Positions 7,437 through 46,451 of a stretch of DNA of 58,473 nt are shown here, one piece after another (position 1 is the first letter of the stretch; every line of letters begins with the position of its first letter). The stretch is from assembly GCA_003141275.1 (NCBI GenBank), contig PLLM01000073.1, positions 1 through 58,473 on the forward strand. The letters run 5' to 3'. The notes under the pieces are model-generated. The model saw only the letters and a program-made list of their open reading frames with translations. It was not told where the DNA came from and ran no database searches. Both the position numbers and the translations under genes were made by a program. The DNA comes from Phycisphaerales bacterium (GTDB lineage Bacteria > Planctomycetota > Phycisphaerae > Sedimentisphaerales > Anaerobacaceae).

Positions 7437-8540
7437 CTATGGTTTATCGGAACTCTGCGAATCTTCGGGGATGGACGGCTTATCTTCTCCGCCGGATAAA
7501 AGCTGCTTCATCTGCCCCTGAAGTTCGCGGATGCTTTGTTTAATCTCGGGAAGATACTGAATCATACCGTAGGCACGCTTGCCCTGATTGGCGTCTATCG
7601 CCGGGGCGCCCAATATCACTTTGCCGTCCGCGACGTTGTTGATTACGCCCGCCTGCGCCCCGATTGCGACCTGGTTTCCTATGGCGATGTGCCCGACGAT
7701 GCCCGCCTGGCCCCCGACAATGCAGTGATGCCCCATCGTCGTCGAGCCGGCGATACCCACCTGCGCTACCAGCAGACAGTGCGCCCCGACCCTCGTCCCG
7801 TGCCCAATCGCAATCAAATCGCCCAGCTTGCTGCCCTGCCCGATAATTGTGTCGTTCAGCGTTCCGCGCTCAATCCCGCAGCAGGCGCCTATCTCAACAT
7901 CATCTTCTATTATAACGCTGCCGATTTGCGGTATCTTGTGGTGAACTCCGTTATGCGTGGCAAAACCGAAACCGTCTTCGCCGATTGCGGCATTGGAGTT
8001 GATAATCACGCGGCTGCCTATTTTGCAGCCCTCATAAATCACCACGTTAGGGTACAAGAGGCAGTCATTGCCTATCTGAACGTTCTCCCCAATGAACGTG
8101 CAGGGATAGATTACGCAACCGTCGCCGATTTTTGCGCCGTCAGAGATTGTAACGAAATCGTGGATTTGGCAGCCAGCGCCGACCTTGGCGCTGTCGGAAA
8201 TAATAGCGCGAGGACTAATGCCGACTTTCTTGTGCTTGCGGTGCCCGTGCAGCAGCACCATAATCTGCATAAAGGCGTAATACGGGTCATCCGCAACCAG
8301 CAGAGGAGTTGAGGCCGTAACAGTATCCTTGCCCACAATCACTGCGCTGGCTTTGGTTGTCAGCAGTTGCTTTTCGTATTTATCGTTGCTCAGAAAACTT
8401 ATATCACCTGTGCCGGCCCTGCCTAATGTTGCCGCGGCGCTAATCTTGACGTTTGCGTCGCCGAGGACCCGCCCGCCAACATACTGAGCCAGTTCGCCTA
8501 AGGTCTTGGTTACCATAAAACCACCTTTTCGGAAAGTCAT
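7437..8540 (-). CDS. lpxD: UDP-3-O-acylglucosamine N-acyltransferase
   Basis: LpxD N-domain (LGELAQYVGGRVLGDANVKISAAATLGRAGTGDISFLSNDKYEKQL) plus hexapeptide repeats with GEDGFGFA. Confidence 0.95.
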   Translation of the reverse strand: MTFRKGGFMVTKTLGELAQYVGGRVLGDANVKISAAATLGRAGTGDISFLSNDKYEKQLLTTKASAVIVGKDTVTASTPLLVADDPYYAFMQIMVLLHGHRKHKKVGISPRAIISDSAKVGAGCQIHDFVTISDGAKIGDGCVIYPCTFIGENVQIGNDCLLYPNVVIYEGCKIGSRVIINSNAAIGEDGFGFATHNGVHHKIPQIGSVIIEDDVEIGACCGIERGTLNDTIIGQGSKLGDLIAIGHGTRVGAHCLLVAQVGIAGSTTMGHHCIVGGQAGIVGHIAIGNQVAIGAQAGVINNVADGKVILGAPAIDANQGKRAYGMIQYLPEIKQSIRELQGQMKQLLSGGEDKPSIPEDSQSSDKP

Positions 8541-8633
8541 TGCTTGTTTGCGGCCTATTCTGCCAAGGCCGGAGGTATTATAGCAGATACATCACGGCGG
8601 TCAACATTCGCTGCCAATCCGTGAAACAACCAA

Positions 8634-9686
8634 TTATGCCAGCAACGCCGCCGCCGCTTTTTTTTGCAGGTTTTCCGAGATTGCCCCGGCAAAATCCGTC
8701 TCGTTGCTCCGCAGGATTGTTACGGCAGGTCCAAGAGGACCATAAATGGCCGGCTCCGTGGGGCCGAATACCACAACCGTTCGGATGCCCACTGCCGCCG
8801 CCAGATGAGTTATTCCGCTGTCGTTGCCGATATAACCCCACGAACAACCAAGAACGCCGAGCACCTCAGCCAAAGACAGGTTTGTCAGCAGTTTTCCGGC
8901 AGCCCTGATTTGGGCGATGGCCGGTTCGCTGAACCTTTCCGCCTCGGCAGGCCCAAACAGAAACACCACCTCTGCCCCCTCTTTTGCGAGCATCCGCGCC
9001 ACCGCAAGAAAATTATCCAGCCGCCAGCACTTATGCGCCCCGCCACTGCCGGGATGAATAACGACGGGCTTGCGTGTGGGCATAATACCCTTTTCAGCCA
9101 ATATTTCTTTGCCTCTGAGAATATCCGCCTGTGTCGGTCTTATCAGGGGCATACCGACCGCTGAATTGTGCTCCTGAGACAACAATTGGCTTTGTTCAAC
9201 AAATTGCTTCCTGTAAAAATCGCTGATGTGAATGTTGTGCTTATCCGCTGGTTTCATCGCCAGCGTCATCACTTCCGCGCTGTGGCTGCAATTGACCGTG
9301 AAAATCAGGTTCTTCTCGAAATGGCTGTCCGGCTCGCCGAGAAAGCTGGCAATCCATGAATAACCCGCAAACGCCATAATCAATGGGTCGCCATCGGCAA
9401 CCTCAAAATCTCCTTCGCCCGCGAACAGCCGATGCAAACTCATCGAATCCAATGACCTGACCGCATCGACACAGCTTCTGCCCGGCAGTATCCCCAAGTA
9501 TTCCGTATGGCCGATTATATCGACCCCGCCGGGGCAAACCGTCTCTTTCATCATTTCCGCCAAAGGCAGCGTCAAAATGCAATCGCCTATCGCCCCCGGC
9601 TGCAAAATCGCCCCTCGCGTGCCCCGCTGCGCCGCAATCGCCAGCATTTCCCGCAGCTTGTCTATGATATTGCTTCTTCCACTCAT
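8634..9686 (-). CDS. Glycosyltransferase family 9 (heptosyltransferase-like)
   Basis: IHPGSGGAHKCW, GNDSGITHLAAAVGIRTVVVFGPTEP motifs. Confidence 0.88.
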   Translation of the reverse strand: MSGRSNIIDKLREMLAIAAQRGTRGAILQPGAIGDCILTLPLAEMMKETVCPGGVDIIGHTEYLGILPGRSCVDAVRSLDSMSLHRLFAGEGDFEVADGDPLIMAFAGYSWIASFLGEPDSHFEKNLIFTVNCSHSAEVMTLAMKPADKHNIHISDFYRKQFVEQSQLLSQEHNSAVGMPLIRPTQADILRGKEILAEKGIMPTRKPVVIHPGSGGAHKCWRLDNFLAVARMLAKEGAEVVFLFGPAEAERFSEPAIAQIRAAGKLLTNLSLAEVLGVLGCSWGYIGNDSGITHLAAAVGIRTVVVFGPTEPAIYGPLGPAVTILRSNETDFAGAISENLQKKAAAALLA

Positions 9687-9812
9687 CTTGATTCTACGTA
9701 ATATATCCTATCGAGGGGCCTGGCAACAAGAACGCAGGGGCTTTTATTGAGCAAGATGTGATTTTGAGGTATAATTGTGAGGTTTTGCACGTTAGTGGAA
9801 AATCAGGCAAAG

Positions 9813-11867
9813 ATGGCGAAGTTTGAATTAAGTAATGCGATGACGCCGGGTGGGGACCAGCCGGCGGCGATAAGCCGGCTGATGGAAGGGCTGCGCGCGG
9901 GTAAAAAGCTCCAGACGCTGATGGGCGTAACCGGGTCGGGCAAGACATTCACAATGGCAAATATAATCGCGGCGTATAATCGGCCTACATTAGTCATATC
10001 GCACAACAAGACCTTAGCGGCGCAGCTTTACGAGGAGTTCAAGGATTTGTTCCCCAACAACGCGGTTGAGTATTTCGTGAGCTATTATGATTATTACCAG
10101 CCGGAGGCGTATATACCGCAAAGAGATATATACATCGAAAAAGACGCCTCGAAGAACGCAGACCTGGACCGATTGCGGCTTTCGACTACGATGAGTTTAT
10201 CGACCCGCGAGGACTGTATTATCGTGGCGTCGGTATCGTGCATATTCGGATTGGGCTCGCCTGAGGATTACAAGGCAAGCGTCGTGGGCGTGAGAGTCGG
10301 CGATACGATTGACAGAAATACGCTGCTTGGCCGATTGGCGGACATACAATACTCAAGGAATGACTTTGATTTTCAAAGGGGTAAATTCCGCGTCCGCGGG
10401 GACGTGGTCGAGTTGCATCCTTCTTATGAATCGTTCGCGATTCGATTCGAGTTTTTCGGCGACCAGATAGAAAAAATCAGCTACATAAACCCGGTCAGCG
10501 GAGATATCCTCGCCCAGGAAGAGCAGGTCTTTATATACCCCGCGCAGCATTACGTTACCGGGGGGGACAGATTGCTCAGCGCGATAGAAGGGATAAAAGC
10601 CGAATTATCGCAGCGACTGATGGAACTGCGCAGTCAGGCCAAATTGCTGGAGGCGCAACGCCTTGAGGCACGCACAAAATACGATATCGAAATGCTTCAG
10701 GAAGTAGGTTATTGCAGCGGGATAGAAAATTACAGCAGACACTTAGCGGGATTACCTGCGGGGGCAAAGCCATACACGCTGATAGATTATTTCCCGAAGG
10801 ATTTCCTGTTATTTATCGATGAGTCGCACGTTACGATTCCGCAATTGCGCGGGATGTGGGCGGGCGACAGGAGCAGGAAAGACGTATTGGTTGAGCACGG
10901 GTTCAGGTTGCCCAGCGCATTGGATAACAGGCCCCTGCGTTTCGAGGAATTCGAGGAAAAATGGAACCAGGTGGTTTTTGTATCCGCGACGCCGGGGCCA
11001 TTTGAGATGGCCACGTGCAATAACGAGGTGGTAGAGCAGATAATCAGGCCTACTGGTTTGATTGACCCGGAGATTTTTGTTCAGCCGGCGAAAGACCAGG
11101 TGGCGCACTTAATCGGCGAAATAGAAAAGCGAATCAAGGTCGGGGAAAGGGTTCTGGTAACGACGCTGACGAAAAAAATGGCGGAAGACCTGTCGGGGTT
11201 TATCGCGAAAAAAGGGATTAAGTGCCAGTATCTTCACAGCGAGATTGAAACGCTGGAGAGGGTTGAAATACTGCGGAACCTCCGGCTGGGGCAGTTTGAT
11301 GTGTTGGTGGGGATAAACCTGCTGCGGGAGGGGCTGGATTTGCCTGAGGTGTCGATGGTGGCGATTCTGGACGCGGACAAGGAAGGATTCCTGCGGAGCG
11401 AGACATCGCTGATACAGACGATAGGCAGGACCGCCAGAAACGTCAACGCGACGGTGTATTTGTACGCCGATACCGTCACCGAATCGATGAAGAAAGCTAT
11501 TGACGAAACGTACAGACGGCGTAAAATTCAGCTTGAATACAACCGTGAACACAACATCACCCCTGAGACGATACGCAAGGAAATACGTTCGGGGTTGACC
11601 TTGGAGCTTAAAGCCAGGCAGGCCGCGCGCGAGGCGGTGCGGTTTGAGCCGGATGAATTCGAGAAAGTCGAGCTGGCGAGCACGATTGAAAAGGAAATGC
11701 TCGAAGCCGCTGCTGCGCTTGATTTTGAGCGGGCCTCCTTTTTGCGCGATAAGCTGAAAGAGCTTAAAGAGCTGCCGCAGCTGGTGCTTTTAGATTCTAA
11801 AAAGAAGAAGAGTAATTTTTTAGCTACAAAGAAACTGAAGAGATTCAATAATCAAAACGAAAGGTGA
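9813..11867 (+). CDS. uvrB: Excinuclease ABC subunit B
   Basis: [17 protein letters not shown] (Walker A), [22 protein letters not shown]-terminal UVR motif; MAKFEL start at 9813 within ORF 9777-11867. Confidence 0.98.
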
Positions 11868-11868
11868 T

Positions 11869-12738
11869 ATGGACAAGCTTGAGCTCGAAAAAGTGCTGCC
11901 GCTGCTGAAACTAGCGATAGAGGAAGACATGGGACAGGGGGACATGACCAGCGACCTGTTCTTCGGGAACAATACCGTCGGCAAGGCGGACATCGTCTCC
12001 CGCGAAGAAATAGTCGTATGCGGGATGCAGATAGCGAAAACGATACTGCATATGTATGACAAGCGTTTGAAACTCGATGCGCACGTCAAGGACGGGCAGC
12101 AGGCCTACGTCGGATGTCACCTGGCGACCATCAAGGGGCCGCTTGGTTCGATATTGACCGCGGAACGGGTAGTTCTGAATTTTATGCAGCGGCTGTGCGG
12201 AATAGCGACGACGACGCGAAAATACGTCCGCGCAATACAGGGGACAAAAGCCAAAATTTACGATACGCGAAAAACGCTGCCTGGCTGGCGAATACTTGAA
12301 AAATACGCCGTGCGGTGCGGCGGTGGGTACAACCATCGGCTGGGACTTTACGACGGGATATTGATTAAAGACAATCATATTGCGCAGTTAGGCAGGAATT
12401 TTCAGGCCAAGCTGAAAAAGATTGTCAAAGAGGCGCGCAAGATAAAACACGCCAAATTTGTCGCGGTCGAAGTTGACCACGTTGACGACCAGCTCAACTA
12501 TGTGCTGGCGATACCCGGTATTGACATAGTGCTGCTGGACAATATGGGACAGTGGCAGTTGAAGCACGCCGTCGAAATGAAACGCAAGATGTGCGGCAAG
12601 GGCAAGCCCCTGCTGGAAGCATCGGGCAATATCTCGCTTGCCAACGTCTCGGCGATTGCGCAATCCGGCGTGGACAGGATAGCCGTCGGGGCGATTACAC
12701 ACTCGGCAACGGCTGTGGATATCGGGGTTGACAGGTGA
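11869..12738 (+). CDS. nadC: Nicotinate-nucleotide pyrophosphorylase (carboxylating)
   Basis: EDMGQGDMTSDLF, TRKTLPGWRILEKYAVRCGGGYNHRLGLYDGILIKDNH. Confidence 0.97.
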   Translation: MDKLELEKVLPLLKLAIEEDMGQGDMTSDLFFGNNTVGKADIVSREEIVVCGMQIAKTILHMYDKRLKLDAHVKDGQQAYVGCHLATIKGPLGSILTAERVVLNFMQRLCGIATTTRKYVRAIQGTKAKIYDTRKTLPGWRILEKYAVRCGGGYNHRLGLYDGILIKDNHIAQLGRNFQAKLKKIVKEARKIKHAKFVAVEVDHVDDQLNYVLAIPGIDIVLLDNMGQWQLKHAVEMKRKMCGKGKPLLEASGNISLANVSAIAQSGVDRIAVGAITHSATAVDIGVDR

Positions 12739-13538
12739 GTAAAGCAACACCATCGCCAGACGCGCTTGACCCGGACAAAATAAAGTCGCATCTCAGGACA
12801 AAACGCATCGGCCAAAAGGTCGTCGTTTACAACAGCACCGCAAGCACAAACGACATCGCCGCCCAATACTCCAAAAACAAAAATAATGACGGTCTTGTCG
12901 TCCTCGCGGAGGAGCAGGTACAGGGGCGAGGCAGGAGCGGCAATAAATGGGTCGCGGGCTTCGCCGACAGCGTAATCTGCTCGATACTTCTGACCGATTG
13001 CGCCATAAACGCGGAATTGCTGTCATTAACAATCGCGGTTGCAACTGCCGAAGCGATAGGTAAATGCGCGAAAGCCGAAGCGAAAATAAAATGGCCAAAT
13101 GATATTATCCTGAACAACAAAAAAGTCGCCGGCATTCTCGTCGAATCAAAGAAGGCGGGTAAGCATACCGCTTACATAATCGGCATCGGCATTAACTGCC
13201 ATCAAAGCAAACTGGATTTCCCCGCTGAATTGCGGAAAATAGCGACGAGTATTGATATCGAAACCGGCGGCCAAATCGACAGAATATCGCTTATCAAACG
13301 ACTGCTTACCTCGATTGATAACTCACTTGACATCGCTGAACAAAACAAAGAAGAAATTATCGAACATTGGCAGCAATTAAGCACCCAGCTCGGACAAAGG
13401 GTGGCACTTATTTACAACAAGAAGAACTTTGCCGGCAACTGCGTCGGTATCGACCCCGAAAAGGGACTCATTTTGCAGTTAGACACCGGCGGAATCAGAA
13501 TGTTCCAGGCGGCACAGACAATAATCACAAAAGAATAA
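12735..13538 (+). CDS. birA: Biotin--[acetyl-CoA-carboxylase] ligase
   Basis: STASTNDIA, QGRGRSGNKWVAG, KWPNDIILNNKKVAGILVE; GTG start, 4-bp overlap with nadC. Confidence 0.93.
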   Translation: MSKATPSPDALDPDKIKSHLRTKRIGQKVVVYNSTASTNDIAAQYSKNKNNDGLVVLAEEQVQGRGRSGNKWVAGFADSVICSILLTDCAINAELLSLTIAVATAEAIGKCAKAEAKIKWPNDIILNNKKVAGILVESKKAGKHTAYIIGIGINCHQSKLDFPAELRKIATSIDIETGGQIDRISLIKRLLTSIDNSLDIAEQNKEEIIEHWQQLSTQLGQRVALIYNKKNFAGNCVGIDPEKGLILQLDTGGIRMFQAAQTIITKE

Positions 13539-20682: not shown

Positions 20683-21504
20683 ATGAGATACGTAACGCTG
20701 ATTGCGATGGCAATTGTTTTTGCGGGTGGATGCCAACGGAAATACGTGGCCGTGGAAGCTGAAAAAGCGGGATTGTCGGAAGCCGAATCAAGGGAAGTGA
20801 TGAAGGCCGAACGCCTCGGGGAGGAGTTGTATTTACAGGATGCAATTGCCGCAAAGGCAACGGATGCGCTGTTGCGGGTAATTGGCTCGATAAAGCCGGG
20901 CGCTCTGAACGGCTGGATTATCGTTAAGGACGGGGGCGGGAACCTGACACGATTCATCAGGCAAACAGGGGAAGACGTAAACGTTGCTTATGACGTGCGG
21001 ATTGACATCAAGGGCAACGCCGAGGTTACGAAGGACAACCTGCGGCCTTTGTCGGCGACGGAGATGGCGATGTTCCTCGCCAGACGAAACGCGATGCGTG
21101 CCGCGCCGAAGAATTGCGCAAAGGCCTTTAATACCGCGGTAATGGAAGACATCGATTCCAGCGGATGGCTGGTATATATTCTGGCGGCAACATCGGAGGA
21201 TGTAATTGTGGTTGGAGGGCACAGCCGGGTAAAGGTGTCGGCGGACGGTAAAACTGTTTTGGCCGTAACCCCGCTTTATCAATCCTGTCTTGCGCTGCCA
21301 AAGCCGGCTGCCGACAAAACTGGGGAACCACAGGCCCTTTCTGTAAGTTATCCTCTGGAAAATGTCCCGTCGGAGATTCACGTATTTTTGAACCGTCTTT
21401 ACGGATACCCTGTGTATGTGTCAACGGCAAAAGGCGAATGGCTTGTGAAGAATGGGAAAATATCGTTAATCAAGCCCACAGGAAAAGCAGGACAGCAAAA
21501 ATAA
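20683..21504 (+). CDS. Hypothetical lipoprotein
   Basis: Signal with lipobox-like AIVFAGGC; no recognised domain. Confidence 0.65.
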   Translation: MRYVTLIAMAIVFAGGCQRKYVAVEAEKAGLSEAESREVMKAERLGEELYLQDAIAAKATDALLRVIGSIKPGALNGWIIVKDGGGNLTRFIRQTGEDVNVAYDVRIDIKGNAEVTKDNLRPLSATEMAMFLARRNAMRAAPKNCAKAFNTAVMEDIDSSGWLVYILAATSEDVIVVGGHSRVKVSADGKTVLAVTPLYQSCLALPKPAADKTGEPQALSVSYPLENVPSEIHVFLNRLYGYPVYVSTAKGEWLVKNGKISLIKPTGKAGQQK

Positions 21505-21910: not shown

Positions 21911-23062
21911 TTACTTGATAAGCAGCACAACAAGGTCGATTATGAAAAGCAGGACTATCGTCACCTCAAGCAACAGCATCACAGAGTTTAACCTGTTTTG
22001 AAGCAGAATCTGGTAGAGACCATCGAGCGTCCTGGTTTTTTCCCCGATAATACGCTGCCAGTCGCCCAGGTGGAACCTGTCCGCGAGATTTCTGTGCGTC
22101 TTCGCCAGGTGCCAGTCCCCGAAAAATTTCGTTATGTTTGACAATTCATCGCTTATCCTCGCCAGGTCTATACGAAGCTCTCGCAGGTTCTCCAGCATTT
22201 TGCGAGTAGAACGAACTGTTTGCCTGTTCATATCGCCATAGGCAACCTGAAGCGCCTCGTCCAGAACCCTGTCATAGGCGGCAAGCTCCACCAACTGGAC
22301 GTTCGCAAGCTCCATTATGTGCAGAACGTCGTCGAGCGCGTCCTGCTGGCCCACCACAATCGCCGAATCCCAGTCAACCACAACGAGGTCGTCCCCGTAA
22401 TAGCTCAGGTACAATCCCGTCGATTCGCAGACCTCCTGCTCTGATAGCGATTCGGCGTTTTCCTCCTGCATAAGCAGCGCCGCCACCCGTCTTCTGTTGG
22501 CCGTCAGCCAATCCTCCGCGCGGACCCCTTGTCCTTCCACCTCCGGCAGGCCTGCCACGCAAAACACCGTATATGCCTCCGCCTGCATCAGCGATGGGAC
22601 CGGTCGAACACAATAAGGCGCAAGGTCCTTTCTAACGTTCTCGGCAAATTCCGCGACTTCTTCCTCAAGACCACCCTGGGCAAATTTCAAATCGTGATAA
22701 CCGACAAGGTCCTCCAGCCGCTCAACCTCGAACGGCACTCGAACCTGAACAGTCATCGCACCGACGCCAAAAATTTTAACGCTTTTCCTGATTTCAAGCG
22801 ATTCTCCGCTGCGCAGCACGCGCTTTTCCGGAACAAAATCGGCTATCCGCGGCCGATAGAAAAACATCTGCCTGGGAATTCGCTTGCTGGGCCCCACAAG
22901 ATAGTCCCTCGTCGGCTGCGTTAAAATCTTCTCCACCGGCTCATTTTTTATATCGTACGCGATGTCATAAGCATAGATATAAACAACCTCGCCGCGATAC
23001 GGCAGGCCCCGCCCCTGCGTATTTGCGACCATTTTATCACTCTTAATATCCATCTCAGTCAA
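21911..23062 (-). CDS. RMD1/DUF155-family protein with C-terminal TM segment
   Basis: C-terminal NRLNSVMLLLEVTIVLLFIIDLVVLLIK and preceding helical region typical of RMD1/YagE. Confidence 0.72.
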   Translation of the reverse strand: MTEMDIKSDKMVANTQGRGLPYRGEVVYIYAYDIAYDIKNEPVEKILTQPTRDYLVGPSKRIPRQMFFYRPRIADFVPEKRVLRSGESLEIRKSVKIFGVGAMTVQVRVPFEVERLEDLVGYHDLKFAQGGLEEEVAEFAENVRKDLAPYCVRPVPSLMQAEAYTVFCVAGLPEVEGQGVRAEDWLTANRRRVAALLMQEENAESLSEQEVCESTGLYLSYYGDDLVVVDWDSAIVVGQQDALDDVLHIMELANVQLVELAAYDRVLDEALQVAYGDMNRQTVRSTRKMLENLRELRIDLARISDELSNITKFFGDWHLAKTHRNLADRFHLGDWQRIIGEKTRTLDGLYQILLQNRLNSVMLLLEVTIVLLFIIDLVVLLIK

Positions 23063-23881: not shown

Positions 23882-24283
23882 CTAATTTTCAGTTGTCCCC
23901 GCGACCTTGACGTAAGCCATGCGAAGCTCATTGAGCGCAGAAGTCATGGCCTGCTGCTCCTCGTCGTTGAGATTGCCTTTTGTCTTTGCTTCGAGGGTCT
24001 CTAATATATCGATATTGTACTTGGCAAGCGCAAGGTCCGGCGCACGTTTTTCCTGCCCCTTCACCTGGAGAAACCCAAGTGAAAAAAGCGTCTGCGTGAA
24101 AAGCATGCTCACCAGGGCCGCGAAGTCGCCCTCGGGCAGCGGGCTTCGGCGATTATCACCTTCGACTTCCTGTTTTTCGGCCTCCTCCTTTGCCGCCATT
24201 ACTTCTTTTTCCTTCTTTGCCTGCTGCTTCCAGTCCTCATCGATAATTATTTTCTTCTCGTCTTTTTTGTTGTTTTCAGCCAT
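23882..24283 (-). CDS. DUF1844 domain protein
   Basis: LVSMLFTQTLFSLGFLQ...APDLALAKYNIDILETLEAKTKGNL DUF1844 signature. Confidence 0.85.
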   Translation of the reverse strand: MAENNKKDEKKIIIDEDWKQQAKKEKEVMAAKEEAEKQEVEGDNRRSPLPEGDFAALVSMLFTQTLFSLGFLQVKGQEKRAPDLALAKYNIDILETLEAKTKGNLNDEEQQAMTSALNELRMAYVKVAGTTEN

Positions 24284-24303: not shown

Positions 24304-24831
24304 TTAGTGACGAAATTTTTTCATCCTCTTGTCAATGTCTCTTTTCTGTTCACGTTCGGCGATTGCCCGGCGTTTGTCATATTGCCGTTTGCCTCTGGCG
24401 AGCGCTACTTCCGTTTTCGCCAGGCCTTTTTGATTAAAATATATCCGCAGGGGCACAAGCGTATAGCCGCGCTGCTCAAGCTTGGTGTAGATTTTGTGAA
24501 TCTCGTGCTTGTGCAGAAGAAGTTTCCTTTTTCGTGTCGGGCTGTGGCCTGCCAGTCCCGTTACCTGGTATTGGGATATTTTCGCGCCCACCAGCCAGCA
24601 TTCCCCGTTCACGATTCTCGCGTATGACCCGCTCAGATCCGCCTGCCCCGTGCGGAGCGACTTTACCTCGCTGCCCAAAAGCTCCATTCCCGCTTCGAAC
24701 TTGTCTTCTATCTCGAAGTTGTGCCAGGCCTTCTTGTTGACCGCGACCGCCTTGGCCGCCGCGTCTTTTTTTTGGGATTTTGCGGACATTTGGCCAATAA
24801 TAGCCGTGCCGACCCCTTTTTGCAAGGTCAA
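24304..24831 (-). CDS. smpB: SsrA-binding protein
   Basis: DKFEAGMELLGSEVKSLRTGQADLSGSYARI, RKRKLLLHKHEI; likely start at 24786 (MSAKSQKK). Confidence 0.95.
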   Translation of the reverse strand: MTLQKGVGTAIIGQMSAKSQKKDAAAKAVAVNKKAWHNFEIEDKFEAGMELLGSEVKSLRTGQADLSGSYARIVNGECWLVGAKISQYQVTGLAGHSPTRKRKLLLHKHEIHKIYTKLEQRGYTLVPLRIYFNQKGLAKTEVALARGKRQYDKRRAIAEREQKRDIDKRMKKFRH

Positions 24832-24900: not shown

Positions 24901-27360
24901 CTAAACGCTCGCTTTGCGATTCTCCTGGCAGAACTTGCCCATCAGCATCATCGATTTATTAGTCGCTTCCGCCGAGCCGTCCATTTTCGCGAAGGCATCG
25001 ACCAGCGCAACCAAATCCGGGTCCGCAGGCACACGCCCATAGTGATGAGCCACGTTTACTATCCCCGCATCAAGGCCGTATTCCATCGCCTTTGCCACGT
25101 ATGCCCGGCAAACACCAATTCTCCGCCCCGGCAAATCGCGAACCGAATTGCTGATACCAAGCGAACAGTGAACGCCCTTCATCGCAGGGTCGCTCTTTAT
25201 CTTTTTGATTGCCTCGAATGCCCGGTAAGTATATCCCGGCACTCCCGGCTCCATCGGCATATCTATCGCCAGTGGGAAAACCGTCGAATCCAGCAAAATC
25301 TCCTCCGGCTTGAAACCATACTGCCCCACCGCTTTTTCGTAAATATTTTTGGCCAGCGAATACAATTCTTCCATCGAATGTGACCCGCCCGGCCCGGTCG
25401 GTTTGTCTTCCGTCATCAATAGCCCGATGAACGCGTAATCGTAATCCTTTTTCAGCGGGAAAAATTTATCCATCGTGTAAATCTTCACCGAGTTTATCAA
25501 CGGCTGCTTCACCGCCTCCTTTGTGTTGTACCACTCTTTCAATCCCGCTATCAGCACGTCGTTGTTGCCGCTGTCGATACAGATGGGGACGCCATTGCTC
25601 CACCTGCGAACCAGCTTCACATATTCGCGCATCATATCTACCGCGACCTGCTGGTCGTCCTCGCCGAACGCGTCAACATTCACCGCGAGATAATCCGCCC
25701 CGTCGTTCGCCTGCGATTCCACCAGCGCCTTAATATAATTCAACGGCCCGCTCGGCTTCACATAAGCATCCGGCCCAAGCTGTGCCAGTTGCCTCATTAT
25801 CTGTCCCGTCTTCGGTATCGAGGCGTGAATCGACTCGCCAATCGAAATCAGGGCGTTTTTCATAGTGTGGTCCCTCCCAAACAGGTAATTCAAAATCGAC
25901 GCCGTATGTTCCAGCGTTTTTATTCTCGGCTTATTTATTATCCGTTTGAGTTTCTCAAGGCCGTACGTCTCCGATGCCGCTGCGTCGTAAATCAATTCCC
26001 CGATACACACACGTTCCAGATTATTTCCGCATTTACCGTCAGCTGTCGCGTCCCCGCACGGCGCATTGGCAAGCCCCTTTTCGCATCCCCCCATCGTGCA
26101 AAGTCCGAAATTCTCAGGCAGATAACAATCACCGCATCCCTCGCAGTCAAATATCAAATACTTGAACACACTCTCCTTCACGTGGAACAATTTGTACATC
26201 GCGCCTTCGCCTTTTTCAGTTCCCAGGGCCGCCATAGTCCCCCTGAATGCGCGGAAGCCGCGATAATCAGAATTCAAAATCGCCCTGTGCATAAAATTGA
26301 AAAATTTGTGATTGAACGTCTTACGCGGCTTCGACAAAGTTCTCTCTCGACCGTTATCATCGTAAAGATAAAACGCCTTCTTCGCGGGAAAGCACAAATT
26401 ATCCTTGTATTGCCCCCACCCATCGCCAATCTCCGCGGCCCTTTTCAAAATGTCCGCGAACATCTCAAAATTGCTGATACCCCCGATATCCACGCCTGCC
26501 GCGCCAATCGCCTTATACATTGCCACCTGTTGCGCCGCCCTGTCGATATGCTGCGACAAATTCTCCGAATACAGTTTCGCCAGAAACTCGTCGCTCACAA
26601 AACACCCGGTCAATTTGGCATCGTGCATCAATCTCGGCGCAGCCGTCGTAGTGCTCAAGAAGTAAACGTTGCCCAGAACGGGGATATTTAGTTTGTTCTT
26701 CTCGATGTATTTGAAAAGCTCCTGCGACTTCTTCCAGTCCCAGCCGACCTGCGTAATCAAAAATTTCGCCCCGCAGGCGATTTTTTTCTCCATCTTGTAA
26801 TATTGCTGCATTTGCGATTGCTCAGTGTATTTGAATGGCGACACCGCCGCGCCGGGGAAAAACTGGTGAACCTTGTCTAAATCCGCTGGCCTCGCCTTTA
26901 TGTACCCCTCGTTGTTCATATCCCTGATGACTTGCAGCAACCCAATTGAATCAACGTCGAAAACGCTCGTCGCGGAAATCGGCTTATCGCCCGTAAGAAT
27001 CAGCACGCTCTCTATCCCGGAATCTCTCAGTCCCACAAGCGAGCTGACAAGCGAATTGGCGTTCTGGTCCTTGCACGAAATATGCGGCACACAATCCAAA
27101 TCGCCCAGCAGCCCCTCCGCGTTCAACCTGTCAATCGCGTGACCCGGGTCGATATTCGCCACCCCGCCCGGATTCTGTGGCAGCGTAATCCCCGCAAAAT
27201 CAAACCCCGCAGGTATCGAATCAGGCCCTGCCTTTTTGTAAGCCGACAAAAATTTCCCTATCGGCCCAAAGTCAAAATTAGGCCCGCCCGCAAGCTCCGC
27301 CACTACAACAAACCCGGATTTGTTTTCCAGCCGTTCTCTTAGTTTTTTCCGCTGCGCCAT
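24901..27360 (-). CDS. Three-domain C1 enzyme: MetF-like reductase + MetV-like Cys-rich domain + pterin-binding methyltransferase (AcsE/MetH-pterin-like)
   Basis: aa 1-~320 MetF TIM barrel (ILTGDKPISATSVFDVDSIGLLQVI...); aa ~406-444 CEGCGDCYLPENFGLCTMGGCEKGLANAPCGDATADGKC; aa ~500-819 ISIGESIHAS...AVNVDAFGEDDQQ...PICIDSGNNDVL...SLGISNSVRDLPGR. Confidence 0.88.
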   Translation of the reverse strand: MAQRKKLRERLENKSGFVVVAELAGGPNFDFGPIGKFLSAYKKAGPDSIPAGFDFAGITLPQNPGGVANIDPGHAIDRLNAEGLLGDLDCVPHISCKDQNANSLVSSLVGLRDSGIESVLILTGDKPISATSVFDVDSIGLLQVIRDMNNEGYIKARPADLDKVHQFFPGAAVSPFKYTEQSQMQQYYKMEKKIACGAKFLITQVGWDWKKSQELFKYIEKNKLNIPVLGNVYFLSTTTAAPRLMHDAKLTGCFVSDEFLAKLYSENLSQHIDRAAQQVAMYKAIGAAGVDIGGISNFEMFADILKRAAEIGDGWGQYKDNLCFPAKKAFYLYDDNGRERTLSKPRKTFNHKFFNFMHRAILNSDYRGFRAFRGTMAALGTEKGEGAMYKLFHVKESVFKYLIFDCEGCGDCYLPENFGLCTMGGCEKGLANAPCGDATADGKCGNNLERVCIGELIYDAAASETYGLEKLKRIINKPRIKTLEHTASILNYLFGRDHTMKNALISIGESIHASIPKTGQIMRQLAQLGPDAYVKPSGPLNYIKALVESQANDGADYLAVNVDAFGEDDQQVAVDMMREYVKLVRRWSNGVPICIDSGNNDVLIAGLKEWYNTKEAVKQPLINSVKIYTMDKFFPLKKDYDYAFIGLLMTEDKPTGPGGSHSMEELYSLAKNIYEKAVGQYGFKPEEILLDSTVFPLAIDMPMEPGVPGYTYRAFEAIKKIKSDPAMKGVHCSLGISNSVRDLPGRRIGVCRAYVAKAMEYGLDAGIVNVAHHYGRVPADPDLVALVDAFAKMDGSAEATNKSMMLMGKFCQENRKASV

Positions 27361-41861: not shown

Positions 41862-42005
41862 TCTAATATCCTTTCAACCGTTGTTTCATTGCCAATATAA
41901 TAATCACTCGCCCGTCCATCCGCTAATATAAATTGCCTGCCCGGCGCTTGACTTTGCGCCGGATTTTTATATTGTTGCATGAGTTTTGTGCAAGGAGGCC
42001 TAAAA

Positions 42006-43274
42006 GTGGCAGAAAAACTCGCAGCAGGAGCGTTTGTTTTTGAACCGCCGGCAAATTCGCCGGTTGGAAGTGTTCTATACAACGAACACTTAAAACTCAC
42101 CGATAAATCCCACATCGCCGAGTTCGCCGGCTATCTTATGCCCCTGTGGTATTCTTCGATAGGCGAAGAACATTCCGCGGTTCGCAAGCGAGCGGGCATG
42201 TTCGACTGCACCCATATGGGCGCCTTAGAGGTCGCAGGCCCAAACGCCGAGAGTTTTCTCGACGCGGTTACGACCAATAACGTCCGCGCATTGCAGTCCG
42301 GCTGTGCCCAATACGGTTATTTACTCGATGCCGCAGGCAACGTCCTTGACGACATAATCATCTACCGGCGCGAAAAAGAAAAATTAATGGTGGTTGTAAA
42401 CGCCTCGAATGAGCCGAAAGCCAGGGCGTATCTCGCCGCGTTGCAGGCGGGTAAAGCAAAAATTGACATGGCGAAGCCCGACAGGCAAATAAAGACCGCT
42501 CCCGTCCGTGATATGCGGGACACAAAAACCGGCCCCGATTGCAGGGTCGATATCGCTGTTCAGGGGCCTTCATCGCCGGATGTTCTTTGCAAACTCGCAG
42601 ATGCCTCGGTCAGCCAGCAAATAAAAAATCTCAAAAGCTTTACGTTCTGCCAGGCAAAACTGGCGAATATCGATTGCATCATCTCCCGCACCGGATACAC
42701 CGGGGCAAAGGTCTGTTTCGAGCTTTTCTTGCATCCCAAAGATGCTGCGAAATTATGGCAAAAATTAATCGAAGCAGGAGCGTTGCCCTGTGGACTGGGT
42801 TCACGAGATAGTTTGCGTGTCGAAGCGGGTCTGCCACTTTATGGCCACGAGCTTGCCGGACCATATAATATATCCCCGTTTGAGGCGGGTTATGGCTGGG
42901 CGGTAAAATTAGACAAGGAGTTCTTCATTGGCAAAGCGGCGATGGATAAAATCTCGAAAACCTATAAAATGAAGGTCGCCCGGCTTGAGCTTTCCGGCGA
43001 AAAGGGCGTCAGGCCTGTCCGCCAGAACGATGCTGTAATATGCGAAGGTCTTTGCGCCGGCTGGGTCCTCAGCAGCGCAACCGCGGGAACCAAGCAGATT
43101 GCTCTTGCATATATGGATAAGGATAAAGCGAACGAGGGAAATCCGGTTGATATTTATTACCTCGCCCGCAGCGAAAGCCAGAAAAACAAAGGTAGAAAAC
43201 AAGCCGTGGAAAAAGGCGAACGTATAATCGGGGACATCCAGGGTAAAGTGATAAGCCGATTTGAAAAATTTTAA
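42006..43274 (+). CDS. gcvT: Glycine cleavage system aminomethyltransferase (T protein)
   Basis: MPLWYSSIGEEHSAVRKRAGMFDCTHMG, SRTGYTGAKVCFELFL, LRVEAGLPLYGHEL; GTG start preceded by AGGAGG. Confidence 0.93.
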   Translation: MAEKLAAGAFVFEPPANSPVGSVLYNEHLKLTDKSHIAEFAGYLMPLWYSSIGEEHSAVRKRAGMFDCTHMGALEVAGPNAESFLDAVTTNNVRALQSGCAQYGYLLDAAGNVLDDIIIYRREKEKLMVVVNASNEPKARAYLAALQAGKAKIDMAKPDRQIKTAPVRDMRDTKTGPDCRVDIAVQGPSSPDVLCKLADASVSQQIKNLKSFTFCQAKLANIDCIISRTGYTGAKVCFELFLHPKDAAKLWQKLIEAGALPCGLGSRDSLRVEAGLPLYGHELAGPYNISPFEAGYGWAVKLDKEFFIGKAAMDKISKTYKMKVARLELSGEKGVRPVRQNDAVICEGLCAGWVLSSATAGTKQIALAYMDKDKANEGNPVDIYYLARSESQKNKGRKQAVEKGERIIGDIQGKVISRFEKF

Positions 43275-43290
43275 CAGTGGAGGCAAAGTT

Positions 43291-43671
43291 ATGGTTGTTA
43301 AGGGACTGCTTTACACAAAGGACCACGAGTGGGCCAAAATCGAAGGCGGCGTTGCGATTATCGGCATAACTGACCACGCCCAGAACCAGTTGGGCGAGCT
43401 TACTTTTGTCGAACTGCCCGATATAGGCAAAGAGGTCAAACAGAAAGGCGAACTCGCCGTCGTCGAAAGCTCCAAAGCCGCCAGCGACGTTTATTCGCCC
43501 GTTACAGGTAAGGTAATCGAGATGAACGCTAAACTCGAAAAAAATCCGGAAATAGTAAATGACGACTGTTACGGCGCCGGCTGGATTTGCAAAATCCAGA
43601 TAACCGACAAGGCAACGACGAAAAACCTTATGGACGCCGCGCAGTATGAGGAATACCTGAAAGGGCTTTAA
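43291..43671 (+). CDS. gcvH: Glycine cleavage system H protein
   Basis: YTKDHEWAKIEGG, GELAVVESSKAASDVYSPVTGKVIE (lipoyl-Lys motif). Confidence 0.96.
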   Translation: MVVKGLLYTKDHEWAKIEGGVAIIGITDHAQNQLGELTFVELPDIGKEVKQKGELAVVESSKAASDVYSPVTGKVIEMNAKLEKNPEIVNDDCYGAGWICKIQITDKATTKNLMDAAQYEEYLKGL

Positions 43672-43674
43672 GAT

Positions 43675-45006
43675 ATGCCGTTTATTGCCAATACCGCAGG
43701 CCAGCAAAAGCAGATGCTGGCCGAGATGGGCCTTACGATGGATAAGCTCTTTTCGGATATACCAAAAGGGCTTCTGTGCGGGCAGCTGAATCTGCCTGAT
43801 GGATTGCCCGAGCAGGAAGTCCGCGGCGCCCTCGCCGAGCTTGCGGGCAAAAACTCGATAGACCTCACGCTTTTCCTGGGCGGCGGCTTCTACGACCATT
43901 TCATACCGGCAGCTGTTTATTCGATTATATCACGCAGCGAATTTTACACCGCCTACACCCCGTATCAGCCCGAGGTCTCGCAGGGGACATTGCAGGCCAT
44001 ATACGAATATCAATCGACGATTTGCCGGCTGACCGATATGGTAGTCGCCAACGCCTCAATCTACGACGGGGGCACCGCGATGTACGAGGCGATGATGATG
44101 GCCCTTCGCATCACGGGCAGAAACAAGGTAATCATAGATGACAGCGTCAATCCCATTTACCGCGTTATGATTGAATCATATACGAAGAACCTCAAAATCG
44201 AGCATGTCCTGACTCACTGCCAAACCGGTCTTGTTGACCGCGAACAGATATTAGCCAAACTCGATAATGATACCGCCGCTGTGATTTTGCAAAATCCCAA
44301 TTTCTTCGGCTGCGTCGATGACTTCAGTGACATAGCCGAAGCCGCGCATAAAAAAGGTGCGCTCCTGGTCGTGTCCAGCTATCCCATATCGCTCGGAATA
44401 CTGAAAACCCCCGGCTCAATGGGAGCTGATATCGTTACAGGCGAAGGCCAGTCCCTCGGTATGCCAATGTCCTTCGGCGGACCATACCTCGGCTTTATGG
44501 CGACGCGGATGGAATACGTCCGCAAAATGCCCGGTCGCATCATTGGCCGAACCAAAGACCGCAATGGTAATGATTGCTTCGTTATGACCCTTCAGGCAAG
44601 AGAACAGCACATACGCAGAGAAAAGGCCACGTCGAATATATGCTCCAATGAGGCCCTGTGCGCTATGACCGCGCTTGTGTATCTGTCATTGTTAGGCAAA
44701 GAAGGTCTTCGCCAAACGGCACAGCTTTGTGCCGATAAGGCCAGCTATGCTTATAGCCGCCTCACCGCCATACCCGGCGTAAAATCCCACTTCAAGGCCA
44801 ATTGGTTCTTCAATGAATTTGTGCTCGACCTGCCAAAAGACGCCACGGATGTGATAGGTAAACTTATAGAAAAAGGTTTCGCCGCCGGCTTCCCATTGAG
44901 CAGGTATTATCCCGATATGAAAAACTGCATCCTCGTATGCGTTACCGAAAAGCGAACCAAACAGCAGATAGGTATGTTCGCCGAAGCACTGGAGAGCGTC
45001 TTATGA
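43675..45006 (+). CDS. gcvPA: Glycine dehydrogenase (decarboxylating) subunit 1
   Basis: FLGGGFYDHFIPAAVYSIISRSEFYTAYTPYQPEVSQGTLQAIYEYQ. Confidence 0.96.
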   Translation: MPFIANTAGQQKQMLAEMGLTMDKLFSDIPKGLLCGQLNLPDGLPEQEVRGALAELAGKNSIDLTLFLGGGFYDHFIPAAVYSIISRSEFYTAYTPYQPEVSQGTLQAIYEYQSTICRLTDMVVANASIYDGGTAMYEAMMMALRITGRNKVIIDDSVNPIYRVMIESYTKNLKIEHVLTHCQTGLVDREQILAKLDNDTAAVILQNPNFFGCVDDFSDIAEAAHKKGALLVVSSYPISLGILKTPGSMGADIVTGEGQSLGMPMSFGGPYLGFMATRMEYVRKMPGRIIGRTKDRNGNDCFVMTLQAREQHIRREKATSNICSNEALCAMTALVYLSLLGKEGLRQTAQLCADKASYAYSRLTAIPGVKSHFKANWFFNEFVLDLPKDATDVIGKLIEKGFAAGFPLSRYYPDMKNCILVCVTEKRTKQQIGMFAEALESVL

Positions 45007-46451
45007 AACTGATATTCGATAAAAGTGTACCCGACAGGCGCGGTGTTACAATAACGCGAAGCGACGTCGCCACCACCGTAAATATAAAAAAGGAATTCCT
45101 CCGTGATAAACCCGCACAGCTCGCCGAGCTTAGCGAACTTGACGTAGTGAGACACTTCACGGAACTTTCGCGTCGCAACTTCGGCGTCGATACCAATTTT
45201 TATCCCCTCGGCTCCTGCACGATGAAATACAACCCGAAGGTCACGGAACGTATCGCCGCCTATCCCGGCTTTGCGCATCTCCACCCGCTGCTTCCCCAGT
45301 TGCGCGGAGGCGGCATGCTTACGCAGGGGGCGCTCGCCGTCCTTTATGAAATGGATATGCTCCTGCGCGAAATCACGGGAATGGCTGGTTTCACGATGCA
45401 GCCAATGGCGGGCGCACACGGCGAACTGACGGGCATAATGATTATGGCCGCCTACCATCGCGACAAAGGCAACAAAAAAACAACCGTCCTCATCCCCGAC
45501 AGCGCTCACGGAACCAATCCCGCCAGCGCAGCAATCGCCGGCTACAAAATCATCTCCGTCCCCAGCACCGACAAAGGCGTGATGGATGTCAACGCCCTTA
45601 AAAAACTCCTCAACGATGAAGTCGCGGGCCTTATGCTCACCTGCCCCAATACGCTTGGATTATTCGACCCGAATATCAAACAGATTTGCGACCTGATCCA
45701 CAGCGTCGATGGTCTCGCCTATTACGATGGCGCAAACCTCAACGCCATTGTCGGCAAAGCACGCCCTGGTGACTTCGGCTTCGACATCGTCCACATCAAT
45801 CTTCACAAAACATTCGCGACCCCACACGGCGGCGGCGGTCCCGGCTCTGGCCCCGTCGGCGTTACCAAAAAACTCGTCGATTACCTGCCCGTCTCAATCG
45901 TTACCAAACGCCACGACGGCACCTATGCCCTCGAATATGACCGCCCCAAATCCATCGGCTACATCGCCCCCTTCTACGGCAACTTCGCCGTAATCCTCAA
46001 GGCGTATGTCTATATCCTTATGCTCGGTAAAGCAGGCCTCGTCCGCGTCGCCGAAAATGCCGTCCTCAATGCCAATTATATAAGAGTGAAATTGCAGAAG
46101 CATTTTGAACAAGCTGTAAAGGCAATTTGTATGCACGAATGTGTGCTGACACCATCGAAGGGAATGTTGGATTCAGGCGTTCACGCCCTGGATGTCGCCA
46201 AGGCGCTCATTGACCGCGGCTTTCATCCGCCCACTGTTTATTTCCCCACGACCGTCCACGATGCGATTATGATAGAGCCAACCGAAACCGAGAGCAAGGA
46301 AACTCTCGATTCTTTCATCGAGGCGATGATTGATATCGCCGAAGTTGCCAAAACCGACCCCGAAAAAATCAAGGCCTCGCCCTTGACGACTCCTGTTTGC
46401 AGACCCGACGACACCGCCGCCGCCAAAAACCTCGACCTCGCCTGCCTATAG
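45003..46451 (+). CDS. gcvPB: Glycine dehydrogenase (decarboxylating) subunit 2
   Basis: TNFYPLGSCTMKYNPK, INLHKTFATPHGGGGPGSGPVGV; ATGA overlap with gcvPA. Confidence 0.97.
   Translation: MKLIFDKSVPDRRGVTITRSDVATTVNIKKEFLRDKPAQLAELSELDVVRHFTELSRRNFGVDTNFYPLGSCTMKYNPKVTERIAAYPGFAHLHPLLPQLRGGGMLTQGALAVLYEMDMLLREITGMAGFTMQPMAGAHGELTGIMIMAAYHRDKGNKKTTVLIPDSAHGTNPASAAIAGYKIISVPSTDKGVMDVNALKKLLNDEVAGLMLTCPNTLGLFDPNIKQICDLIHSVDGLAYYDGANLNAIVGKARPGDFGFDIVHINLHKTFATPHGGGGPGSGPVGVTKKLVDYLPVSIVTKRHDGTYALEYDRPKSIGYIAPFYGNFAVILKAYVYILMLGKAGLVRVAENAVLNANYIRVKLQKHFEQAVKAICMHECVLTPSKGMLDSGVHALDVAKALIDRGFHPPTVYFPTTVHDAIMIEPTETESKETLDSFIEAMIDIAEVAKTDPEKIKASPLTTPVCRPDDTAAAKNLDLACL

Follow-up and report, generated by a model that had tools for sequence, protein, structure and literature searches.

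A reductase–methyltransferase fusion protein of Planctomycetota as a probable part of a split, cobalamin-dependent methionine synthase

A contig of a Phycisphaerales bacterium (the window, i.e., the whole analyzed stretch of 58,473 nucleotides) encodes an 819-aa protein that combines MetF-like, MetV-like and pterin methyltransferase domains in a single chain. This composition, proposed in a first-pass annotation, was borne out by Pfam and structure searches, and it raises the question of which pathway the protein serves. The first-pass annotation placed it in an acetogenic context and named CODH/ACS genes among the companions to look for; this frame failed, because the genome contains no corrinoid Fe-S protein (CFeSP) of that system. 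From the sequence comparisons described below, we consider that the fusion probably both makes methyl-THF and transfers its methyl group within a split, cobalamin-dependent methionine synthase, rather than serving acetogenesis.

The ORF is uninterrupted, starts with ATG and occupies positions 24901..27360 (stop codon included) of the minus strand; its coordinates had been given correctly, with the strand left unstated. The plus strand over 24901–27360 is interrupted by stops. Three Pfam matches, all exceeding the curated cut-offs, were obtained with the 819-aa protein: MTHFR (aa 88–264, E 8e-14), DUF5981, named "methylene-tetrahydrofolate reductase C terminal" (aa 390–475, E 1e-13), and Pterin_bind (aa 545–769, E 5e-11). 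Together with the relatives and an AlphaFold2 model, they delimit a MetF/MTHFR TIM barrel (aa 7–321; 26398..27342), a DUF5981 (MetV C-terminal) domain (aa 390–475; 25936..26193) and a pterin-binding methyl-THF:corrinoid methyltransferase barrel (aa 500–819; 24904..25863), all on the minus strand. The chain retains just the C-terminal half of MetV and lacks the N-terminal part found in free-standing MetV; the protein thus differs from a separate two-domain subunit such as the 222-aa MetV encoded on contig C10 of the same genome. It also differs from a canonical MetH, as the HMT, pterin, B12 and activation domains are not in one chain. A frame or assembly artefact was rejected: the architecture is kept as a single ORF in dozens of relatives from separately assembled genomes and is therefore neither a chance product nor an assembly join.

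Sequence matches of the fusion in the PDB are remote, the best being an AcsE (53 bits); therefore, its fold and residues were checked. The full-length AlphaFold2 model, based on an alignment of 52 relatives, is confident (pLDDT 89.4, pTM 0.89). It matches the solved MTHFR 1v93 with a TM score of 0.77, the MetH folate domain 5voo_C with 0.83 and the AcsE 2e7f_A with 0.80 (by target length), and a PDB search with a profile built from the 52 relatives recovers AcsE, MetH folate domains and MTHFRs. Glu22, Asp125 and Gln204 of the reductase barrel are invariant (52/52), and we take them to be the counterparts of the catalytic Glu, the Asp and the Gln that binds folate in E. coli MetF. Eight cysteines of the DUF5981 domain (406, 409, 412, 421, 426, 435, 444 and 452) are likewise invariant in 52/52 relatives; the Cys-rich domain had been recognized, and its range, previously put at aa ~406 to ~444, extends slightly further to aa 452. 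Asp596, Asn623, Asp691 and Asn738 align with the pterin-site Asp/Asn residues of AcsE and MetH, and all four are intact in the window protein. Asn738 presumably is equivalent to Asn199, the key asparagine of the Moorella AcsE (cf. the title of PDB entry 2ogy). The earlier assignment of aa ~500–819 to a pterin/corrinoid methyltransferase barrel is thus supported by both the modeled fold and the active-site residues.

The fusion is a conserved family. A scan of one genome per species retrieved 58 relatives, nearly all from Planctomycetota (Phycisphaerae, Sedimentisphaerales) and a few from Kiritimatiellota/Lentisphaerae. Single-ORF relatives are found in most sampled members of the order (within Planctomycetota, Phycisphaerae; the named relatives are Sedimentisphaerales) and in a few other PVC bacteria. 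Of 297 genomes sampled across the class, 72 belong to the order; sorted by hand from search rows, 45 of them have the fusion only, 18 have only a stand-alone pterin homologue (~320 aa), seven have both and two have neither. At the thresholds used, all fusions seen outside the order were of the MetF-MetV type and lacked the pterin domain. Therefore, separate, MetF-MetV and MetF-MetV-pterin arrangements all exist. MetF, MetV and AcsE had been described as separate proteins in acetogens, which is right, but the pterin-less MetF-MetV fusions occur in other families. The parts of the fusion are also found as neighbors, in an order matching that of the fusion. At three loci (L157, L056 and L059), a stand-alone pterin gene, identified by Pfam, directly follows HdrA-MvhD-HdrC-HdrB-MetV-MetF (Hdr and Met genes named by eye), and at L173 a pterin methyltransferase gene comes after a MetF-MetV gene and precedes Fhs and a formate dehydrogenase-like gene. 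The stand-alone form was present in 11 of 12 genomes with a CdhE-type protein and in 14 of 58 others (Fisher 2e-5, not phylogeny-corrected).

The distribution of the known methionine synthases is informative for the role of the family. The fusion or the stand-alone pterin homologue is present in 70 of the 72 order genomes, none of which has a strong match to the MetH activation domain; seven have weak partial matches (E 4e-4 to 2e-6). The two genomes without the pterin family, G186 and G013, are the sole carriers of a five-domain MetH (~1250 aa) among the 72. This mutual exclusion has a Fisher p of 4e-4, not phylogeny-corrected. G186 and G013 belong to different families; therefore, two separate exchanges between split and single-chain methionine synthase are likely. 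Most class members outside the order have MetH. MetE (PF01717) was absent from all 15 genomes tested, including that of the window, in which full-length MetH was also not found; the latter genome is a MAG of 92% completeness, and genes could be missed. A MetH lacking its pterin domain had been suspected, a guess that came close: the genome lacks MetH altogether and encodes the corresponding parts as separate proteins. Since MetH is excluded and MetE is absent, a methionine-synthase role is needed in any case.

Candidates for these parts were located by domain search in the genome of the window. The ORF carries no corrinoid domain, and the first-pass annotation expected a partner elsewhere in the genome; indeed, a 214-aa corrinoid protein with B12-binding_2 and B12-binding domains (PF02607+PF02310) and a DLHDIG motif is encoded on another contig (C89:8078-8722, plus strand). 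A stand-alone homocysteine methyltransferase (PF02574) of 306 aa with a Zn-binding GGCC motif is located at C63:25504-26424 (minus strand), and a RACo/RamA-like reactivase (PF14574) of 532 aa at C95:58699-60297 (plus strand). Pterin_bind matches in this genome are limited to DHPS and the fusion, and no other CH3-THF:corrinoid methyltransferase was found there. The corrinoid protein, the homocysteine methyltransferase and RACo are present in all six genomes first examined, RACo (PF14574) being found in seven of eight. The homocysteine methyltransferase varies in subtype: G001 has solely a different subtype, and G002 has both, so that either type may be the acceptor enzyme. The corrinoid proteins are 53–88% mutually identical in the compared genomes. 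On a Phycisphaerae MAG contig (L062), a single locus, which covers almost all of the proposed route, holds genes for a homocysteine methyltransferase, a PocR/AraC regulator, the corrinoid protein, Fhs and FolD, contiguous with the beginning of the fusion, which runs off the contig end. A PocR regulator, Fhs and the corrinoid protein are also adjacent on the complete chromosome of G002. In the genome of the window, the partner genes are scattered across contigs and unclustered with the fusion, which counts against the methionine-synthase reading.

The genome also encodes a YitJ-type homocysteine methyltransferase-MTHFR of 627 aa (C63), and MetF and MetV additionally occur as separate genes accompanied by Hdr subunits. 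The fusion was therefore rejected as the sole MTHFR, since C63 and C72 encode further ones. HdrB/HdrC-like genes were observed in two highly similar sets, one with MetF (L123, on C72) and the other with HdrA, MvhD and MetV (L124, on C10). Together they resemble the HdrABC-MvhD-MetVF system of Moorella, divided between two contigs, although this genome has no CODH/ACS corrinoid protein. Beside the Hdr genes of L124, at 7656-13076, lie five tandem genes for similar proteins of 337–373 aa that look like glycoside hydrolases (cellulase-like).

A three-step scheme can be proposed for the split methionine synthase. Judging from its conserved residues, the N-terminal barrel would reduce methylene-THF to methyl-THF. 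Electrons, probably supplied by ferredoxin or a comparable donor as in the case of MetVF, may reach the flavin barrel via the clusters of the DUF5981 domain with its eight cysteines; the cluster content is uncertain, because the fusion contains just the C-terminal part of MetV. The C-terminal barrel would then move the methyl group to the cob(I)alamin of the stand-alone MtgC/MtbC-like corrinoid protein, from which the stand-alone homocysteine S-methyltransferase would pass it to homocysteine to yield methionine. The RACo/RamA-like ATPase is expected to re-reduce the corrinoid. Methylene-THF may be derived from formate, as Fhs and FolD are neighbors in relatives, or from glycine through the glycine cleavage system in the window.

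The genes around the fusion add little to this scheme. smpB (24304..24831), which has no C1 role, lies directly downstream, followed by a gene for a DUF1844 protein (23882..24283), both on the minus strand; relatives preserve the order smpB-DUF1844-trpC behind stand-alone pterin genes as well. smpB, DUF1844, trpC, thiG, thiH and dapF were rejected as functional partners for want of a C1 link. Downstream of trpC, ORFs of 383 aa (21911-23062, minus strand) and 273 aa (20683-21504, plus strand) are retained in close relatives, and neither has a convincing family match. Of the glycine cleavage system, which had been called full, the four genes checked, gcvT, gcvH, gcvPA and gcvPB (41979..46451, plus strand), are present. 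A coupled glycine-to-methyl route had also been suggested, an idea that rested on proximity; the genes lie ~15 kb away on the other strand, and their tie to the fusion is the shared window alone.

The best PDB match to AcsE could indicate that the pterin domain methylates the CODH/ACS corrinoid Fe-S protein for acetyl-CoA synthesis, and in some relatives (L044 and L046) the fusion indeed lies in a CdhD-AcsE-Fhs-fusion-FDH operon. However, these relatives have their own AcsE and the pterin site of the fusion is degenerate in both loci. Wood-Ljungdahl relatives with CODH/ACS corrinoid proteins keep a separate AcsE, which forms a distinct clade in the tree (support 100). The pterin domain of the fusion groups with neither AcsE nor MetH; therefore, its specificity cannot be read from phylogeny. 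A CFeSP was found neither in the genome of the window nor in G002 or G005, and a CODH/ACS partner was rejected for the former, where the only PF03599 match is HgcA and no CdhD/CdhE was detected. This function is mostly refuted for the genome of the window and is the least credible of the alternatives. HgcA was in turn rejected as the methyl acceptor of the fusion, as it is patchy (above the cut-off in 7 of the 297 class genomes) and its methyl donor is reported to be SAM (PMC11588087). The hgcAB pair itself (contig C13, L131:8263-9606, plus strand) scores 460 bits for HgcA (cut-off 275) and 130 for HgcB (cut-off 99), contains the cap motif NVWCAAGK and lies close to ArsR-type regulators; this planctomycete is thus predicted to be a mercury methylator.

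A reverse flow of methyl groups can also be envisaged. The fusion might act as the MT2 component of oxidative demethylation, in which a substrate:corrinoid methyltransferase would methylate the corrinoid protein from methylamines, glycine betaine or methoxy compounds, the pterin domain would pass the methyl group on to THF and the MTHFR half would oxidize methyl-THF to methylene-THF. The corrinoid protein of the genome scores best against the MtgC/MtbC/pyl_corrinoid models, though below their cut-offs, and the Fhs/FDH neighbors could run in either direction. In other Phycisphaerae families, MetF-MetV fusions occur near a URO-D (PF01208) protein, a corrinoid protein and RACo. Against this, the L062 locus contains a homocysteine methyltransferase, no substrate-specific methyltransferase was recognized beside the fusion in the neighborhoods read, and the exclusion of MetH and absence of MetE demand a methionine synthase anyway. 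We therefore regard demethylation as improbable for the fusion. The loci from the other families (L172:2173-9216 and L175) consist of MetF-MetV, the URO-D-type protein, a B12-binding protein, RACo and a conserved protein of ~436 aa with no Pfam or NCBIfam match; they are possibly a demethylation system.

The pterin barrel could instead be structural or a folate store, with the fusion acting as an MTHFR only. Asn623, Asp691 and/or Asn738 are lost in 12 of the 52 aligned fusions, all of which keep the MTHFR residues and the eight cysteines; the fused MTHFR can therefore outlive the transferase. However, the window protein has an intact site, as do all single-copy fusions and stand-alone copies examined (the G228 copy is cut off before Asn738), and no second CH3-THF:corrinoid methyltransferase was found in the genome of the window. 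For the window protein, a reductase-only role is thus very unlikely. Loss of the site is confined to divergent fusions, and a second intact copy, fused or stand-alone, is present in all six checkable genomes (G003, G219, G240, G261, G269 and G296). This pattern indicates that the transferase half persists where required, while the reductase half is kept throughout. The divergent branch with the degenerate site comprises L036, L038, L039, L042, L044-L046, L048, L050-L052 and L179, and several members adjoin formate dehydrogenase-like and Fhs genes. As a tentative extension of the methionine-synthase reading, which we consider rather doubtful, the reductase may hand newly formed methyl-THF to the methyltransferase barrel, so that ferredoxin-driven reduction and corrinoid methylation would merge into a single committed step of methionine synthesis that is effectively irreversible; in the paralogous branch, the transferase half would be a non-catalytic domain of a formate/Wood-Ljungdahl-associated MTHFR.

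If the fusion is part of a split methionine synthase, it would explain methionine synthesis in a large, mostly uncultured group of planctomycetes without MetH and MetE, and the order would show clearly how split and single-chain enzymes were exchanged, probably twice and independently. The protein would be a natural construct coupling methyl-THF formation to corrinoid methylation, in which substrate channelling and redox coupling are directly testable. Annotation of MetF/MetV/AcsE-like genes in such genomes is no evidence for the Wood-Ljungdahl pathway.

A split MetH is already known. In Phaeobacter inhibens, its five-part logic was shown by mutant fitness (PMC5764234). The P. inhibens system, a three-part MetH, and MtgCDE of Ruegeria pomeroyi (PMC5764234, PMC12478193) resemble the present one in having a separate homocysteine methyltransferase, an MtbC-like corrinoid protein, a pterin-binding protein and a RamA-like reactivase, and in lacking the MetH activation domain. 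The genome of the window likewise combines a non-MetH PF00809 protein with an intact site, a corrinoid protein, a GGCC-type PF02574 protein and PF14574 with no full-length MetH. In contrast, the planctomycete system belongs to a different phylum, and its pterin protein is fused to MTHFR and a MetV-type Fe-S domain in most members; this fused architecture is apparently unreported, as no report was found in literature searches covering open-licence PMC papers.

The other known enzymes each share a part of the fusion. The iron content of MetVF (type II) from Clostridium ljungdahlii is consistent with two 4Fe-4S clusters in each MetV, and the enzyme accepts electrons from reduced ferredoxin, not NAD(P)H (PMC8760232). 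Its MetF barrel and DUF5981 Cys domain are alike, which makes reduced ferredoxin a plausible donor by analogy, whereas the fusion is one chain with only the C-terminal half of MetV and with the next pathway enzyme added. AcsE (MeTr; 2yci, 2e7f) shares the fold and pterin-site residues, and CH3-THF:corrinoid methyltransferase chemistry is therefore expected; however, the fusion of the window does not lie beside CODH/ACS, lacks a CFeSP in its genome and falls outside the AcsE clade. Canonical MetH (folate domain 5von/5voo) has the same pterin-module fold and overall reaction, but the present system is not one polypeptide, has no activation domain and has MTHFR fused in. The YitJ-type homocysteine methyltransferase-MTHFR (PRK08645), also encoded in this genome, is a precedent for the fusion of MTHFR to a methionine-synthesis enzyme. 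It joins MTHFR to the acceptor half and has no Cys domain, whereas the fusion described here joins MTHFR to the pterin/corrinoid half.
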